A stretch of DNA of 64,000 nt from the NCBI RefSeq assembly GCF_001307295.1, contig NZ_CP012700.1, positions 313,001-377,000 on the forward strand, given 5' to 3'. Positions 14,635-22,076 of the stretch are shown piece by piece. The notes beneath the pieces were generated by a model. It had not been told where the DNA came from and did no database searches. It worked only from the letters and a program-made list of their open reading frames with translations. This DNA comes from Sphingopyxis macrogoltabida (lineage in GTDB: Bacteria; Pseudomonadota; Alphaproteobacteria; Sphingomonadales; Sphingomonadaceae). How positions within the stretch are numbered: position 1 is the stretch's first letter; every line of letters starts with the position of its first letter. Position numbers and translations under genes: made by a program.

Positions 14635-15369
14635 ATGAAAAATCTCTCCCGTGCATGCTTCGGCGTGCTTCTCGCCGCTTCGGCCCTCTCGACCCCCGCT
14701 TTCGCGCAGGACGCCGAAGAAGATAGCGACGGCATCACCATCACCGGCAGCGCCACCGTCGTCAGCGACTATCGTTTCCGCGGCTTCAGCCAGTCGAACG
14801 AAGAAGCCGCGATCCAGGGTGGCTTTACCATTGGCCACGACAGCGGCCTGTATGTCGGTACCTGGGGATCGAGCATCGGCTTCAACAACGGCACCGAAAT
14901 CGACGTCTTTGCGGGCTTCGCCAAGGAGGTCACGCCCGGCCTGACCGCCGACATCGGCGCGACCGTCTATCTTTACCCCGGCGCCAACAACACGACGGTG
15001 ATCGAACCCTATGCCTCGCTGACCGGCGCGATCGGCCCGGCGACGGTCAAGGGCGGCATCGCCTGGGCTCCCGGTGGCCAGAATTCGCTCGGCGACGCGA
15101 GCGGCGTCTACATCTACAGCGACGTCGGCGTGCAAATCCCCGACACCCCGTTCAAGCTGAAGGGCCATGTCGGCTATGCCAAGAGCGACAGCTTCCTCGG
15201 CGGGCTCGACGGCGAAGTGTTCGACTATTCGGTCGGCGTCGATGTCACGTGGAAGGTGCTCACCCTCGGGGTCGCCTATGTGAATACCGACGCCCCGAAG
15301 TTCGGCGGTTACAAGGAAGCGGTCGGCGCCGACGGCGCGGTCGTCTTCTCGCTCGGCGCAGCGTTCTGA
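14635..15369 (+). CDS. TorF-family putative outer-membrane porin
   Basis: This 244-residue protein has a signal peptide (cleavage near AFAQD, residue 25) and a beta-strand-rich body ending in Phe, as outer-membrane beta-barrels do. SATVVSDYRFRGFSQSNEE near the mature N-terminus is the signature of the TIGR02001/TorF group found widely in sphingomonads. Its substrate is unknown. The 14423-14634 gap upstream is fairly AT-rich for this genome and should hold its promoter, but I cannot place -35/-10 boxes confidently. Confidence 0.88.
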   Translation: MKNLSRACFGVLLAASALSTPAFAQDAEEDSDGITITGSATVVSDYRFRGFSQSNEEAAIQGGFTIGHDSGLYVGTWGSSIGFNNGTEIDVFAGFAKEVTPGLTADIGATVYLYPGANNTTVIEPYASLTGAIGPATVKGGIAWAPGGQNSLGDASGVYIYSDVGVQIPDTPFKLKGHVGYAKSDSFLGGLDGEVFDYSVGVDVTWKVLTLGVAYVNTDAPKFGGYKEAVGADGAVVFSLGAAF

Positions 15370-15378
15370 CGCCGGGCC

Positions 15379-15408
15379 GGAGGCGGCCTCTGGGGGGAGG
15401 TCGCCTCC
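15379..15408. terminator. Bidirectional terminator hairpin
   Basis: GGAGGCG (15379-15385) pairs with CGCCTCC (15402-15408), with a further CCTC/GGAGG inner stem. It lies between the convergent porin and TIR-protein genes and could stop both transcripts, though U-tracts are weak. Confidence 0.55.
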
Positions 15409-15429
15409 ACCAATTCCAGGGTCAGGATC

Positions 15430-16995
15430 TTAGGGTTTTCCGGACGCGAGCGCATCGCGGGCGCCGCGCCAACCCATATATTGTTCGGCGAGCATCCAGT
15501 CCTGCCGCGCGAGCTGCGGGTCGGAGAGGCTGATCGCTCCGGCTTGATCGAGCAGGCGCCCCGCCTTGGCCGCCGCATCGCCCGCGAGAAGCGGGTAGCT
15601 CTTTGCGAGTGCGTGGACCTCCCACCCCGCCGGAACATGGCGATAGGTATCGACATAGGTCTCGCCGTCGGCACGCGTCACCATGATGTCGGTCGAGAAA
15701 TTGGTCTGGATCGGCGACAGCCTGTCGATGCCCGCGACGAAGTCGGCGGCGAGGCCCTTCGCTTCGGCATCGCCGACCTCCGGGATCAGCGCGAGCGTCG
15801 CCATGGCGGAGATCGAAGGCGTTTCGGTGCGCAGGCTGTTGTCGGGATAGTCGGCCCAGTTGACCCCCGCTTTCGGCCGCCGCCGCATCAGCCATTCGAC
15901 CGCCCGGCTCCGCGCCGTACGCACCTTTTCCTGCAACGCCGGTTCGCCTTTCAGTGCGGCATCGATCTCGCGCAGCGCGATGACCGCGAAGGCGGTGACA
16001 TAGGTCGCGGCATTGTCGGGCCGGTCGGCGGCGTCCATCGCGCTCGACCACCAGCCTTCGCGATTTTGCGCCGCGAGCAGCGCCTCGACGACGGGCACGG
16101 GTGGCGTCCGGTCCGCGGCACCATAGGCCTTGAGCGTCCACAGCGACACGACGGTAAAGGGCGCGCCTTCGACCATGACGCAATGGCAGCCGCCGCCCAT
16201 GAACTTGGCGACCATCGCGTCGAAGCGCGACAATTTGTCGGCGGCCGTGGCCTTGTCGACCGCGATCAACTGCGCGAGTCCCCAGAAAATCTTGCCGTTG
16301 GTCGCCTTTTCGGTGTCGCCCAGCGCGCTGACGACGGCGTTGGCGATCACCGGTTCGGTTGCCGTCACCGTCTTGTCGAAGCCCGCCTCGACCGCCGCCT
16401 GGTCGAATGCGACCGCCTGCGCGCTATAATACCAGCCCCCGCCGGCCAGCGCTGCAACCGCCAGCGCGGCGGCGGCACCGAGTGCGAGGGACGGGAAGCG
16501 CCGCCGGGATACGGGCGCGCGTCCTGCCGCATCGGCCGGGGTCGCGAGCGGAGCGCCGCCGCCGAGGCGCCGGTCGATTGCCGCGAGTACGCGTTGCCAA
16601 GCCGGATGGGCCGCATTGCCGTCGAATTTCGACAGATCGACGACGTTGACGTTGTAAAATTCGGCGGGCAGCGCCTCCGGGTCCATCTTCTCCAGCCCGA
16701 TCGCGACGAGCGAACCGCGATCGAGGCCGATGCGGCTTTCGATGCGGACCCAGCGGCGCTGGATCGCGGCGGGCGTCCAGCACCCTAGCACGACCTTGGC
16801 GCCCTTGACCGCGCGGTCGATGACGTCGGGAAATTCTGCCCCGGCGTCGATTCCCTCGGCGTCGAAAAAGACATGGTGGCCGCGCGCGGTCAGCAGGTCG
16901 CGAATCTGCGACGCCTTGACGGCGTCGGCGCGGCTGTAGCTGATGAAAATATCATAGGGGCGTTCGGTCGCATCGCCCGCTGCATTTTCCGTCAT
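15430..16995 (-). CDS. TIR domain-transmembrane-toroid protein
   Basis: A 521-residue protein of unusual architecture. Residues about 13-145 form a TIR domain: YDIFISYSRADA, VFFDAEGI, and CWTPAAIQRRWVRIES with Glu86 where TIR NADases carry the catalytic Glu. One membrane helix follows at about 168-190. The remaining 330 residues are helical and resemble alpha/alpha-toroid (squalene-cyclase/prenyltransferase-like) repeats, with a QW-type segment NREGWWSSAMD then TYVTAFAVIALREI. The start was set at M of MTENAAGD because the upstream extension is Cys-rich and unlike the family. It is divergent from creD. NAD cleavage or immune signalling is inference. Confidence 0.8.
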   Translation of the reverse strand: MTENAAGDATERPYDIFISYSRADAVKASQIRDLLTARGHHVFFDAEGIDAGAEFPDVIDRAVKGAKVVLGCWTPAAIQRRWVRIESRIGLDRGSLVAIGLEKMDPEALPAEFYNVNVVDLSKFDGNAAHPAWQRVLAAIDRRLGGGAPLATPADAAGRAPVSRRRFPSLALGAAAALAVAALAGGGWYYSAQAVAFDQAAVEAGFDKTVTATEPVIANAVVSALGDTEKATNGKIFWGLAQLIAVDKATAADKLSRFDAMVAKFMGGGCHCVMVEGAPFTVVSLWTLKAYGAADRTPPVPVVEALLAAQNREGWWSSAMDAADRPDNAATYVTAFAVIALREIDAALKGEPALQEKVRTARSRAVEWLMRRRPKAGVNWADYPDNSLRTETPSISAMATLALIPEVGDAEAKGLAADFVAGIDRLSPIQTNFSTDIMVTRADGETYVDTYRHVPAGWEVHALAKSYPLLAGDAAAKAGRLLDQAGAISLSDPQLARQDWMLAEQYMGWRGARDALASGKP

Positions 16996-17174
16996 CGTCA
17001 CTGCAATCCCGCAAATTTTCGCTTGTGCCGCGAAATCTGCCTTCAGCGATAGCAGCCCCGCCGATGTTGGCAAGCATCGGCAATCACAGGCGCAATCCAC
17101 CGCAAGCCGCTTGACCATGTCGATGAAGCGTGCAAATCCATCGACGAATTGAACCGATAGGAGAACTCATTCCC

Positions 17175-18656
17175 ATGGCTCAAGCCCCCCGAAATGCCTC
17201 CGTTCCCGCCGCCGCGCCGCCCAATCCTCCGGCGCGCGGCGAACGCAGTCCCGGCGTCAAGCTGGTCATTGCGGTGTTCATCGCGGTTGCGCTGATGGTT
17301 CCCTTGCTGATGGTCTATGGCCTGCTCTGGGACCGCCAGCAGCAGGCCGAAACCGCGCAAGCCTCGATCGGGCAGGGGTGGGGCGGGCAGCAGACGATCG
17401 CCGGGCCGGTGATCGTCATTCCCTATCGCGCCACCGAAACGCAGACGGTCACCGAAAACGGCCGTGATGTGACGCGTTCGGTCAACATGATCCGCAACCT
17501 CTATCTCTCGCCGCAGAGCAACACGGCCGAGGTGACGATCAAGCCCGAGAAGCGGAAAAAGGCGATTTACGAAACCGTCGTCTATGAAAGCCAGATCGCG
17601 GGCAGCGCCGAATTCGTCCTGCCCGCCGATATTGCGCGCTATGGCGTGACGCGCGACGCACTGATGCTCGACCGCGCCGAGGTGCGGCTGGGGGTCAGCG
17701 ACGCGCGCGGGCTTGTCGATGGCAACAGCCTGAGCATCGACGGCACGCCGCTGGCGCTCCAGCCGGGCAAGGGGCTGCTATCGACCGGAAATTCGGGGAC
17801 CTTTGCTTTCGTCGACTGGAGCGCCGCGGCGCCGATGAAGGTCGATTACCGGGTCGGCGTCCGCGGGCTCGGCGATTTCAAGCTGATCCCGCGCGGGGTC
17901 GACACGCGCTGGACGGTCAAGTCGAGCTGGCCCAACCCGAGCTTCGGCGGCGATTTCCTGCCCGCGAAGCGCAATGTGACGGGCAGCGGCTTCACCGCGA
18001 CCTATGCGATCCCCAACCTCGCGCTGGGGCAGGCGCAGGTGCTGACCGGCGACCTGTCGCCGCCGGTGACGACCAATTATGGCGGACGCGGTTATATGGA
18101 GCCGGTGCCGGTCGAGGTCGCCGTCGCTGCCGACACCGCCGCCGAGGCGTCGGGCGGCACCGCAAAGGCGGTCGCGATCAGCTTGATCGAGCCCGTCGAC
18201 CTCTACAGCCAGGTCGACCGCAGCATCAAATATGGCTTCCTGTTCATCGGCTTCACCTTCGTCGCCTTCCTGATGTTCGACATCATCGCGGGAGCGCGGG
18301 TCGCGGCGGCCGAATATCTGCTCACCGGCGTCGCGCTGGTGCTGTTCTTCGTACTGTTGCTCGCCTTTGCCGAAGTGATCGGCTTCACGCCCGCCTATTT
18401 GCTGGCGTCGGCGGCGATCATCGGGCTGCTCGCGGCGTATAGCGCGGCGGTACTCAAGAGCTGGAAGCGCGCCCGCTTCCTCGCCGCGATGCTGATCGGA
18501 CTCTATGCCTTGCTCTATGTCCTGCTCAACCTCGAGGCCTATTCGCTGCTGATCGGTTCGGTGCTGATGTTCTTTGCGCTCGCGGGCGTGATGTACATGA
18601 CGCGCAACATCGACTGGGGCGGATTGGGGAAGAAGGAGGAGCCGGTGGCGGCCTAG
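17175..18656 (+). CDS. creD: CreD-family inner membrane protein
   Basis: A 493-residue membrane protein. It has one N-terminal helix (about 30-52), a long periplasmic beta-rich domain (about 55-345), and a C-terminal cluster of about five helices from YGFLFIGFTFVAFLMFD to MFFALAGVMYMT. This layout and the DLYSQVDRSIKYGFLFIGF stretch identify CreD, known in E. coli as an envelope protein of the CreBC regulon. No creBC two-component genes lie nearby. The ATG at 17175 is preceded by AGGAGA; an earlier in-frame start would add residues before the usual N-terminus. Confidence 0.93.
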   Translation: MAQAPRNASVPAAAPPNPPARGERSPGVKLVIAVFIAVALMVPLLMVYGLLWDRQQQAETAQASIGQGWGGQQTIAGPVIVIPYRATETQTVTENGRDVTRSVNMIRNLYLSPQSNTAEVTIKPEKRKKAIYETVVYESQIAGSAEFVLPADIARYGVTRDALMLDRAEVRLGVSDARGLVDGNSLSIDGTPLALQPGKGLLSTGNSGTFAFVDWSAAAPMKVDYRVGVRGLGDFKLIPRGVDTRWTVKSSWPNPSFGGDFLPAKRNVTGSGFTATYAIPNLALGQAQVLTGDLSPPVTTNYGGRGYMEPVPVEVAVAADTAAEASGGTAKAVAISLIEPVDLYSQVDRSIKYGFLFIGFTFVAFLMFDIIAGARVAAAEYLLTGVALVLFFVLLLAFAEVIGFTPAYLLASAAIIGLLAAYSAAVLKSWKRARFLAAMLIGLYALLYVLLNLEAYSLLIGSVLMFFALAGVMYMTRNIDWGGLGKKEEPVAA

Positions 18657-19986: not shown

Positions 19987-21258
19987 TCAGGATGGCGGCG
20001 GGGGCGGCGTGACGATGCCGCCCGTCAACCGGGCGAGCGCCCAGCGCGGCTCGACCGGGCGTCCGGCGTCGGCGACATGCGCCGCGACGCGCGCGCCGAT
20101 CGCGGGGGCCAGCGCGAAGGCGCGTCCCGCGCCGCCGCCGACGACCCACGCGCGCGGATGGTCGGGCAGACGGTCGAGCAGCAGGTCGCCGGTGGCGGTG
20201 CGGCAATCGTGCACCGCGGCGCTGGCGACGACCGGTGCGGTGCCGATGCGCGGCAGTCGGCTGGCAAGCCACTGGCGGACATCGGCGAGCGCGCGTTCGT
20301 CGGCGCGCCGGTCGAAGCTGTCGGGATCGACGCTGGCATCGCCCGTGCTGCGCCAGCAGCGCACGCCCTCGCCCTCGATGTCGGGAAGCGCGGTAAAGCC
20401 ATAGGCGCGGTCGATAAAGGCGGGCATGGCGGGCGGGCGATATTGCAGGTCGCCCTGTCCGGGGCCGAATTGGAAGACCTGGCTGCGCACCGCCGAAAGC
20501 CGCTGCGGCGTCAGCAACTGCGGGAAGAGTTCGGTCAGCCACGCGCCGCAGGCATAGACGATGCTGCCTGCCGTGCCGCCGTCGGGGAGGGCATAGACAT
20601 CGCGGCGCTTGTCGCGGAGCGGGGCGGGCATCACCACCGCCTCGGGCTCTACCTGTGCGTCGAGCAAGGTTTCGAGGACGCCGCGGCGCCCGGCCAGCAT
20701 GGCGGCCTTGTCGGCGATATAGGCCGCTTCGCCCGCGTGCCAGGCGATCTGGGTGAAGCGGTTCCTGAGCTTGTCGCCGCTTTCGCGCTCGCTGCCGCGC
20801 GGTGCAGCGGCCGGGTCGGTTGCGGCGAGCGTCGTCAGCGCCTGGCACGGCGTCAGGATCGGCAAGCTGGCGGTGTCGGAAAGCCTGTCCCACGCCGCAT
20901 AGCTGTCGGAGACGAGGCTGGCGTAAAGCGCGTCGCCGCCCTGCGCCGGGTCGAGCAGCATCGACGGCAGGTTCGACGCGGCGCGGCCGTTGCCCGCGCC
21001 ATAGGCGTCGAACAGCCGGACGCTTTTGCCCTGCCGGACAATGTGCCACACGGTCCACGCACCGAGCGCGCCGGCGCCGACGACCGCGACGTCGACATGA
21101 CTCTCCGGTGCCTTGGCGCCCTTGCGCTTGCGTGATTTGCGCGGCTCGGGTGGATCCTTCGGCTTCGGTTCCTTCTTCTCCCTTGCCGCGGCGCCGACCG
21201 CGAGTGCGGCAGGGACGGCGGCGAGCGATGCGAGCAGCTTGCGGCGATCGAGGCTCAT
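19987..21258 (-). CDS. Tat-exported FAD-dependent oxidoreductase (DAO family)
   Basis: A 423-residue D-amino-acid-oxidase-type flavoprotein. The N-terminus MSLDRRKLLASLAAVPAALA is a twin-arginine signal, followed by a Lys/Pro-rich linker (residues about 26-50). The FAD-binding motif VDVAVVGAGALGAWTVWHI comes next, with the C-terminal WVVGGGAGRAFALAPAIG. The family oxidises amine or hydroxy groups with FAD. The ATG overlaps the stop of the upstream ManA-like gene by four bases, fixing this start although the frame stays open further upstream. The substrate is unknown, but periplasmic action is likely. Confidence 0.9.
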   Translation of the reverse strand: MSLDRRKLLASLAAVPAALAVGAAAREKKEPKPKDPPEPRKSRKRKGAKAPESHVDVAVVGAGALGAWTVWHIVRQGKSVRLFDAYGAGNGRAASNLPSMLLDPAQGGDALYASLVSDSYAAWDRLSDTASLPILTPCQALTTLAATDPAAAPRGSERESGDKLRNRFTQIAWHAGEAAYIADKAAMLAGRRGVLETLLDAQVEPEAVVMPAPLRDKRRDVYALPDGGTAGSIVYACGAWLTELFPQLLTPQRLSAVRSQVFQFGPGQGDLQYRPPAMPAFIDRAYGFTALPDIEGEGVRCWRSTGDASVDPDSFDRRADERALADVRQWLASRLPRIGTAPVVASAAVHDCRTATGDLLLDRLPDHPRAWVVGGGAGRAFALAPAIGARVAAHVADAGRPVEPRWALARLTGGIVTPPPPPS

Positions 21259-22076
21259 GCGGCGGTCGCCCAGGCGATCAGCGCCCTGCCGCTGCCGGCG
21301 AGTGCGGCGAGGTTCGCGGCATCGTCGAACAGCCAGCATTCGCCGGGCCGCCACGGCTCGCCGTCGATCTCTCCCGAACCGTCGACGGGGATGAACCAGA
21401 CGGGGCCAGAGGCGCCGAGATCGGGAAGCGCGGCGAAATCGTCGAGGTGCGCATCGACAAGGCCGAATTTCGGGCCGTCGACGAGGCGGTCGACGCCGAC
21501 CGCGATCGGCGTCCGAAGGTTCGGCGTCAGATAGGGGCCGGGGTCGGCGCAGGCCATCGCCTCCTCGAGATGCAGGTCGCGCGGGCGGCCATAGTCGTAG
21601 AGGCGATAGGTAATGTCGGCATATTGCTGGACCTCGACCAAGGTCAGGCCACCGCCGATCGCGTGGATCGTGCCGGGCGTGACGTGGAAATGATCGCCCG
21701 GCGCGACCGGTTTCCAGTCGATCAGTTCCTCGATGCTGCCGTCGAGCGCGGCGTCGCGCAGTTCTTCGGGCGCGATGCGCTGTTCGAGGCCGAGGCCGAT
21801 CGCCGCGTCGTCGTCGGCGTCGAGGATCACCCACGCCTCTTCCTTGCCCTGCCGCGCGCCGACCGCTTGTGCCCCGGCGTCGTCGGGGTGGACCTGCACC
21901 GACAGCGCTTCGGAGGTGAAGAGATATTTGATCAGCAGCGCCGGTTCGGGGCGTCCGTCGGGGAGTTCGAACCAGATTTCGCCGATACGCTCGCCGCCGG
22001 CATCGAACAGCGGGCCGATGTCGGTGCGGCCCCACGGCTTGGCGACGCGGCGGGGGGTGAGGCGGGTTACAGGCAT
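21255..22076 (-). CDS. Class I mannose-6-phosphate isomerase-like protein
   Basis: A 273-residue cupin-fold protein with the zinc and active-site motifs of class I phosphomannose isomerases: VQVHPDD, GKEEAWVILDA, FHVTPGTIHAIGGG, and VEVQQYADITYRLYDYGRPR. It is shorter than the E. coli enzyme (about 390), lacking the inserted helical domain, as usual in the short YvyI-like group. It interconverts mannose-6-P and fructose-6-P in the family. In this operon (4 bp after the amidohydrolase, 4-bp overlap with the FAD oxidoreductase) a different phospho-sugar or non-sugar role is possible. Confidence 0.9.
   Translation of the reverse strand: MPVTRLTPRRVAKPWGRTDIGPLFDAGGERIGEIWFELPDGRPEPALLIKYLFTSEALSVQVHPDDAGAQAVGARQGKEEAWVILDADDDAAIGLGLEQRIAPEELRDAALDGSIEELIDWKPVAPGDHFHVTPGTIHAIGGGLTLVEVQQYADITYRLYDYGRPRDLHLEEAMACADPGPYLTPNLRTPIAVGVDRLVDGPKFGLVDAHLDDFAALPDLGASGPVWFIPVDGSGEIDGEPWRPGECWLFDDAANLAALAGSGRALIAWATAA

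Follow-up and report, generated by a model that had tools for sequence, protein, structure and literature searches.

Does a single gene of Sphingopyxis macrogoltabida encode a receptor that passes a periplasmic cue to a TIR domain inside the cell? The gene lies in a stretch of 64,000 nucleotides (contig NZ_CP012700.1, positions 313,001 to 377,000; hereafter the window, in whose coordinates its features are given) and runs on the minus strand from an ATG at 16995 to a stop codon at 15430-15432, the interval 15430..16995 encoding a protein of 521 amino acids with the order TIR domain, membrane helix, toroid-like domain. All features of the gene given below are likewise on the minus strand. A reading made from the sequence alone (the sequence-only reading) had picked out this interval and left the strand unstated; the gene is real. 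Most characterized bacterial TIR proteins are cytoplasmic and are triggered from inside the cell. We give about an even chance to the reading that the protein described here is a one-protein inner-membrane receptor in which a periplasmic toroid sensor is coupled to a cytoplasmic TIR NADase. If this is true, a periplasmic toroid wired to a TIR enzyme would let the cell convert an external cue into an NAD+ signal, in the layout of a Toll-like receptor, and the TIR-toroid gene would offer a compact single-gene test object.

A TIR domain with an invariant glutamate in a gene under purifying selection

Pfam TIR_2 matches residues 16-125 at 66.6 bits against a cut-off of 28 (E 3.7e-18) and is the sole Pfam family over its cut-off in the 521-aa protein; with the helix that follows it, the domain spans residues 12-144 (16564..16962). 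The predicted catalytic residue, Glu86 (16738..16740), lies within W-V-R-I-E and is invariant in all 10 intact orthologues, and it is also present in two damaged copies (G063 and G064, described below). A phmmer search of PDB sequences matched the TIR domain of SARM1 (E 0.0015) and aligned the W-V-x-x-E stretches of the two proteins, the glutamate of which we take to be catalytic in SARM1. The TIR domain called by the sequence-only reading is borne out, as is the conservation of Glu86; a glutamate that varies among homologues, part of the outcome that it had named as counting against it, was seen in none of the 10. Matches to NCBIfam and PADLOC models were confined to the TIR stretch and fell far under family level (ThcB4, 41.4 bits of the required 220; Retron_TIR, 27.1 of 600), six PADLOC TIR models matching at E <= 1 and covering 56-82 residues.

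The 10 intact copies were aligned over their whole length, the other nine being 65-94% identical to the window protein. Pairwise dN/dS between the window copy and these nine orthologues was lowest for the TIR part (0.045-0.20), with values of 0.20-0.65 for the linker and helix and 0.13-0.43 for the outer (C-terminal) domain. We concluded from the values for the TIR part and the C-terminal domain that the gene is under purifying selection and is no chance frame: selection acts on both domains, and more strictly on the TIR domain. The same frame stays open upstream of 16995, with another ATG at 17118. The common start in the orthologue alignment represents consistency, not proof, because a script placed the start of each orthologue at the closest M-T upstream; in L011, one of the orthologues, just five codons of open frame precede the corresponding M. 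A scan of 15350-17200 for promoters and terminators found none, and no Rfam family reached its gathering score anywhere in the window.

A predicted membrane helix suggests a periplasmic C-terminal domain

A single predicted membrane helix, found with a 19-residue hydropathy window and not with a dedicated predictor, occupies residues 167-185 (16441..16497), with a mean hydropathy of 1.85 (1.54-1.89 across the 10 orthologues) and an arginine- and lysine-rich stretch before it. In all 10 intact orthologues, the 15 residues before the helix contain three to five lysines or arginines and the 15 residues after it contain none or one. Taken together, the hydropathy of the helix and this charge bias suggest that the TIR domain is cytoplasmic and the C-terminal domain periplasmic, a topology that is supported, not proved. 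The sequence-only reading had likewise placed a cytoplasmic TIR domain before one helix; the helix and the bias agree with it, and the topology keeps the standing of a prediction.

The outer domain has features of an alpha/alpha toroid

What lies beyond the helix? Residues 196-521 (15433..16410) form a predicted extracytoplasmic, all-helical domain of ~326 residues that resembles an alpha/alpha toroid in profile, motif, and model comparisons. No Pfam or NCBIfam family reaches its cut-off there, a check that also covered the possibility, raised in the sequence-only reading, that the C-terminal half is a known unrelated domain. Below the cut-offs, Pfam TED_complement matched the window's outer domain at 14.5 bits (cut-off 22; E 0.019) and 6 of the 10 orthologues at E <= 1, and HTH_57 matched 3 of the 10 (best E 0.081).

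When a sequence profile of the outer domain (A2) was aligned with a profile of 12 squalene-hopene cyclases (out of 20 loci), it scored 37.6 (P 5.3e-4; probability 30.6%), residues 361-431 of the window protein (15703..15915) being matched to cyclase repeats. One hundred column shuffles peaked at 23.3, and the reversed profile scored 14.4. As a yardstick, TED domains (n = 7, those with the motif found among 12 frames out of 14 loci) scored 38.5 against the same cyclases. Scores of A2 against the C-terminal parts of other TIR proteins were 17.1 for the TPR type (n = 8, Pfam showing TPR in only three of them) and 13.4 for the YARHG type (n = 8, one of them scanned with Pfam). By these profile scores and the TED yardstick, then, the outer domain is cyclase-like to about the same degree as another, accepted toroid family. 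It resembles the cyclases in this way without a direct match to TED: A2 scored 18.5 against TED domains, inside the range of 40 shuffles (maximum 21.5), and 22.4 against whole TED frames, below the shuffle maximum of 26.6. We rejected TED as a specific relative, the Pfam match being weak and the TED profile score no higher than those of shuffles.

The QW motif, presumably the repeat motif of squalene-cyclase-type toroids, has a counterpart in the outer domain, where L-x3-Q-x3-G-x-W stands at residues 306-316 (L306 to W316; 16048..16080) in 10 of 10 orthologues. The pattern arose in 48/20000 shuffles of the outer domain, a figure weakened by the fact that the pattern was picked with the sequence already in view; a slightly wider pattern is found in 10 of the 12 cyclases, 1 of the 7 TED domains, and neither the TPR-type (0/8) nor the YARHG-type (0/8) proteins.

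Structure prediction, a check that the sequence-only reading had proposed, yielded two models, both of low confidence, one of them with a predicted local distance difference test (pLDDT) value of 46. Toroid proteins fill the VIA-align list of the latter model, many of the rows being carbohydrate-active alpha/alpha barrels. The top Foldseek row was a designed helical repeat (E 0.39), the best match in a sequence-profile search of PDB was also a designed protein (E 0.011), and a self-comparison of the outer domain revealed no internal repeats. The low confidence of the models, the Foldseek result, and the missing internal repeats would suit an all-helical fold of another kind, such as a solenoid, whose resemblance to squalene cyclases is convergent or a matter of chance. 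Such a fold would have to be squared with a cyclase match that exceeds 100 of 100 shuffles, with control sets that score like noise, and with a QW-like motif that, even allowing for how it was picked, is kept in every orthologue; we consider it unlikely. The outer domain may well be an alpha/alpha toroid, a reading drawn from weak but agreeing signs (one QW-like motif, profile similarity over one repeat, and a low-confidence model) that is supported, not proved. The likeness to squalene-cyclase-type toroid repeats over ~330 residues, noted in the sequence-only reading, holds up within the reach of these analyses.

A ligand-binding sensor or a periplasmic enzyme?

Squalene-hopene cyclases and other class II terpene cyclases are marked by a DxDD motif, which is present in 10 of the 12 reference cyclases but in 0 of the 10 orthologues; the GCxEQ thioester motif, found in 7 of the 12 TED frames, is likewise seen in 0 of the 10. 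On these grounds, terpene-cyclase and thioester chemistry were both rejected. The outer domain has just two cysteines, C270-x-C272 (16180..16188), in 10 of 10 intact orthologues, the residue between them being His in eight, Arg in one, and Trp in one, and it also carries invariant clusters of Trp, Asp, Asn, Arg, and Tyr. Because the two catalytic motifs are absent and the residue clusters and the CxC are invariant, the toroid most likely binds a periplasmic ligand.

The domain might itself be an enzyme of the periplasm, an alpha/alpha barrel that acts on sugars or lipids, in which case the TIR domain would serve as a cytoplasmic clustering anchor and not as a NADase. The carbohydrate-active barrels in the VIA-align list and the dense invariant acidic and aromatic clusters would fit an enzyme, but the outer domain matches none of the enzyme families in Pfam or NCBIfam, DxDD and GCxEQ are missing from all 10 orthologues, and it is the TIR half, with Glu86, that is the better conserved. 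We therefore regard an enzyme of this kind as improbable. Under the receptor reading, the single gene would give rise to a single-pass inner-membrane receptor with its N-terminal TIR domain in the cytoplasm and its alpha/alpha toroid, at the C-terminus, on the periplasmic side. A glycan, a peptide, a lipid, or a cue of redox or metal type would be bound there by the toroid and so cause TIR domains to cluster, which would switch on NAD+ cleavage and thereby lower NAD+ or make an ADP-ribose-type signal.

The gene is rare and, in the copies with a neighborhood read, keeps to one chromosomal site

Some match to the window protein was found in 34 of 80 Sphingopyxis genomes, 21 of them through TIR domains of other proteins and 13 with a TIR-toroid protein. 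The 13 carriers comprise the 10 intact copies (the window's included), one with a frame break (G063), and two that are truncated where their contigs end (G064 and G073); the frame-broken copy (L007, 10001-11569, in the complete genome NZ_CP104207.1) is full length, with the break near its 3' end. Among 298 genomes of the family, a full-length match was seen in the window's own genome only. Searches with A2 matched one of 385 class genomes, its own, and three of the 298 family genomes, its own and two with short weak places; as the class and family searches scored no more than five or seven candidates in each genome, they may have missed distant relatives. The short places, three in all (E 0.002-0.005), were taken as chance; two fall in frames that by eye look VirB8-type, and the third is L069. 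The longest match outside the window's genome in the family search, in another genus of the family (G240:C1:20307-21143), covers residues 10-307 at 28% identity, thus extending beyond the TIR domain, and has one stop inside. No match was found in 50,697 phage records, one TIR-only match was found in 72,556 plasmid records, and an exact-peptide scan of viral contigs found none.

The 10 neighbors of the gene in the window carry the Pfam names AhpC-TSA, DUF455, Peptidase_M23, Exo_endo_phos, Gcw_chp, CreD, FMN_dh, DAO, and Amidohydro_3, the gene at 21258-22076 having no Pfam match; we refer to the FMN_dh gene as LldD and to the Gcw_chp gene as TorF. The TIR-toroid gene is convergent with TorF and divergent from CreD and therefore looks monocistronic in the window. 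In 12 relative loci, CreD or LldD lies on one flank and, where the contig continues, a TorF relative lies on the other; the gene is at one chromosomal site wherever its neighborhood was read. Three loci (L008, L074, and L077) lack CreD; in these, the gene lies downstream of LldD with the same orientation, ~110 bases away or less, and the two could have a common transcript. L006 lacks LldD, L073 yielded no TorF relative, and the TorF relatives of L074 and L077 are only 53% and 42% identical, respectively. None of eight non-carrier genomes examined has a copy in the region, and in six of these genomes TorF and either CreD or LldD are immediate neighbors, which makes the empty site visible between both borders (TorF was not found in the other two, L110 and L112).

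On a DNA tree of LldD covering 36 of the 80 genomes and all carriers except G029, G041, and G068, for which the sequence set contained no LldD (10 of 13 carriers thus being covered), the carrier label changes 3 times, compared with 8.9 times in shuffles, none of 500 of which was as low. Eight carriers and one non-carrier make up one loosely supported group, and the window's genome and G014 are placed among non-carriers. This pattern fits an old presence with loss or a within-genus transfer into the window's lineage; a single-gene tree in which 6 of 33 branches are starred does not discriminate between the two. The window's DAO gene (20013-21258) is 97% identical to that of L072 and 75-77% identical to those of the carriers L008, L074, and L077, but only 40-43% identical to its counterparts in six further carrier loci and the eight non-carriers, which suggests the exchange of a block of this neighborhood.

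TIR domains are effectors of several defense systems, and the protein might act as a stand-alone anti-phage abortive-infection protein, its outer domain detecting envelope damage or a phage component and its TIR domain depleting NAD+. Patchy presence in the genus, the lack of a copy at the site in all eight non-carriers, with both borders visible in six, and the position of the window's genome and G014 on the LldD tree are in keeping with such a role. Against it stand the one chromosomal place shared by all copies with a neighborhood read, the empty phage records and viral contigs, and the lone TIR-only match among plasmids. Nor did the neighbors bear out the defense context that the sequence-only reading had proposed to look for, 0 of 10 matching PADLOC-DB 2.0.0 at E <= 0.001. 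We judge an anti-phage protein of this kind to have a low probability. The fixed place of the gene among ordinary genes, with no known defense models beside it, favors a resident role in signaling or stress no less than one in phage defense.

The TIR-helix layout recurs with other C-terminal domains

The window's genome contains five TIR_2 places. In L002 (G000:C1:1827682-1828269), the TIR domain is followed by a single helix and SH3_3 plus YARHG, and in L003 (G000:C1:1301462-1301845) it is followed by a single helix and a sub-threshold OmpA match; by eye, L150 has several hydrophobic segments after its TIR domain, and L153 has its TIR domain in mid-protein. Among 43 other TIR proteins (48 genus and family loci), 30 have a hydrophobic helix at 140-240, 20 of these 30 are richer in lysine and arginine on the TIR side, and 41 of the 43 have W-[VIL]-x-x-E, fractions that are biased by the selection of the loci for their likeness to the window protein. 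No helix follows the TIR domain in L037 and L038, nor in L052, L056, and L058, which instead have two hydrophobic segments near the C-terminus. In 10 of the other TIR proteins scanned with Pfam, the non-TIR part was matched at E <= 0.001 in eight and over the cut-off in five (YARHG plus SH3_3 once, TPR three times, FHA once); matches to OmpA, FlgO, and Peripla_BP_6 were below the cut-off.

The order of TIR domain, one helix, and other domain thus recurs in the genome, the genus, and the family and is therefore less singular than it had seemed. The sequence-only reading knew of no described system with this order; we found no description of a TIR domain joined to such a toroid in the open-access literature searched (one may still exist in print). 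Overall, its interpretation is partly supported: the TIR-toroid protein seems to be a rare version, specific to its lineage, of a receptor layout found in its relatives too, and not a wholly new system. A broader picture, that sphingomonads use a set of Toll-like single-pass TIR NADase receptors with interchangeable sensors (toroid, YARHG, OmpA-like, TPR), the toroid version sensing an envelope-, host-, or phage-derived periplasmic ligand in true transmembrane TIR signaling, is possible but rather doubtful.

Comparison with known systems

Likeness to Thoeris ThsB/ThcB is partial and restricted to the TIR stretch, the score staying far below the family level (41.4 bits for ThcB4, where 220 are required), and no PADLOC match was found among the 10 neighbors. 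A search of the genome for STALD, found in the Thoeris partner ThsA/ThcA, gave no match but was uninformative, being silent in 14 of 14 controls too. With squalene-hopene cyclases (PF13249), the protein has in common a one-repeat profile match, a QW-like motif, and toroids in the structure comparison; DxDD is theirs and not the window protein's, which is fused to a TIR domain and a helix. The likeness to TED domains of alpha-macroglobulins and complement (PF07678) is confined to the weak Pfam match below the cut-off; GCxEQ is theirs alone, and their profile is not directly matched. SARM1 and bacterial TIR NADases share the TIR domain and, as aligned, W-V-x-x-E with the window protein but lack its membrane-linked outer domain. 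The closest in layout are the TIR-helix proteins described above (L002 with SH3_3 and YARHG; L003 with the sub-threshold OmpA match; L039, L041, and L043 with TPR), which have the same N-terminal TIR_2 domain and one hydrophobic helix but an unlike C-terminal part, as the A2 scores of 13.4 (YARHG type) and 17.1 (TPR type) indicate.

In the sections of PMC7075850 consulted, prokaryotic TIR groups are described as diverse in architecture, with an N-terminal TIR domain and a C-terminal TPR in an actinobacterial group, and in the corresponding sections of PMC8195603, PMC7159879, and PMC10853773, "toroid" denotes ring assemblies of NTPases. Animal Toll-like receptors, as those sections of PMC7075850 present them, connect an outside sensor to a cytoplasmic TIR domain through a single membrane pass. 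The window protein would be similar to them in working layout, with no descent claimed; they have leucine-rich repeats as the sensor, whereas the window protein has a toroid-like domain and the reverse order, with its TIR domain at the N-terminus.
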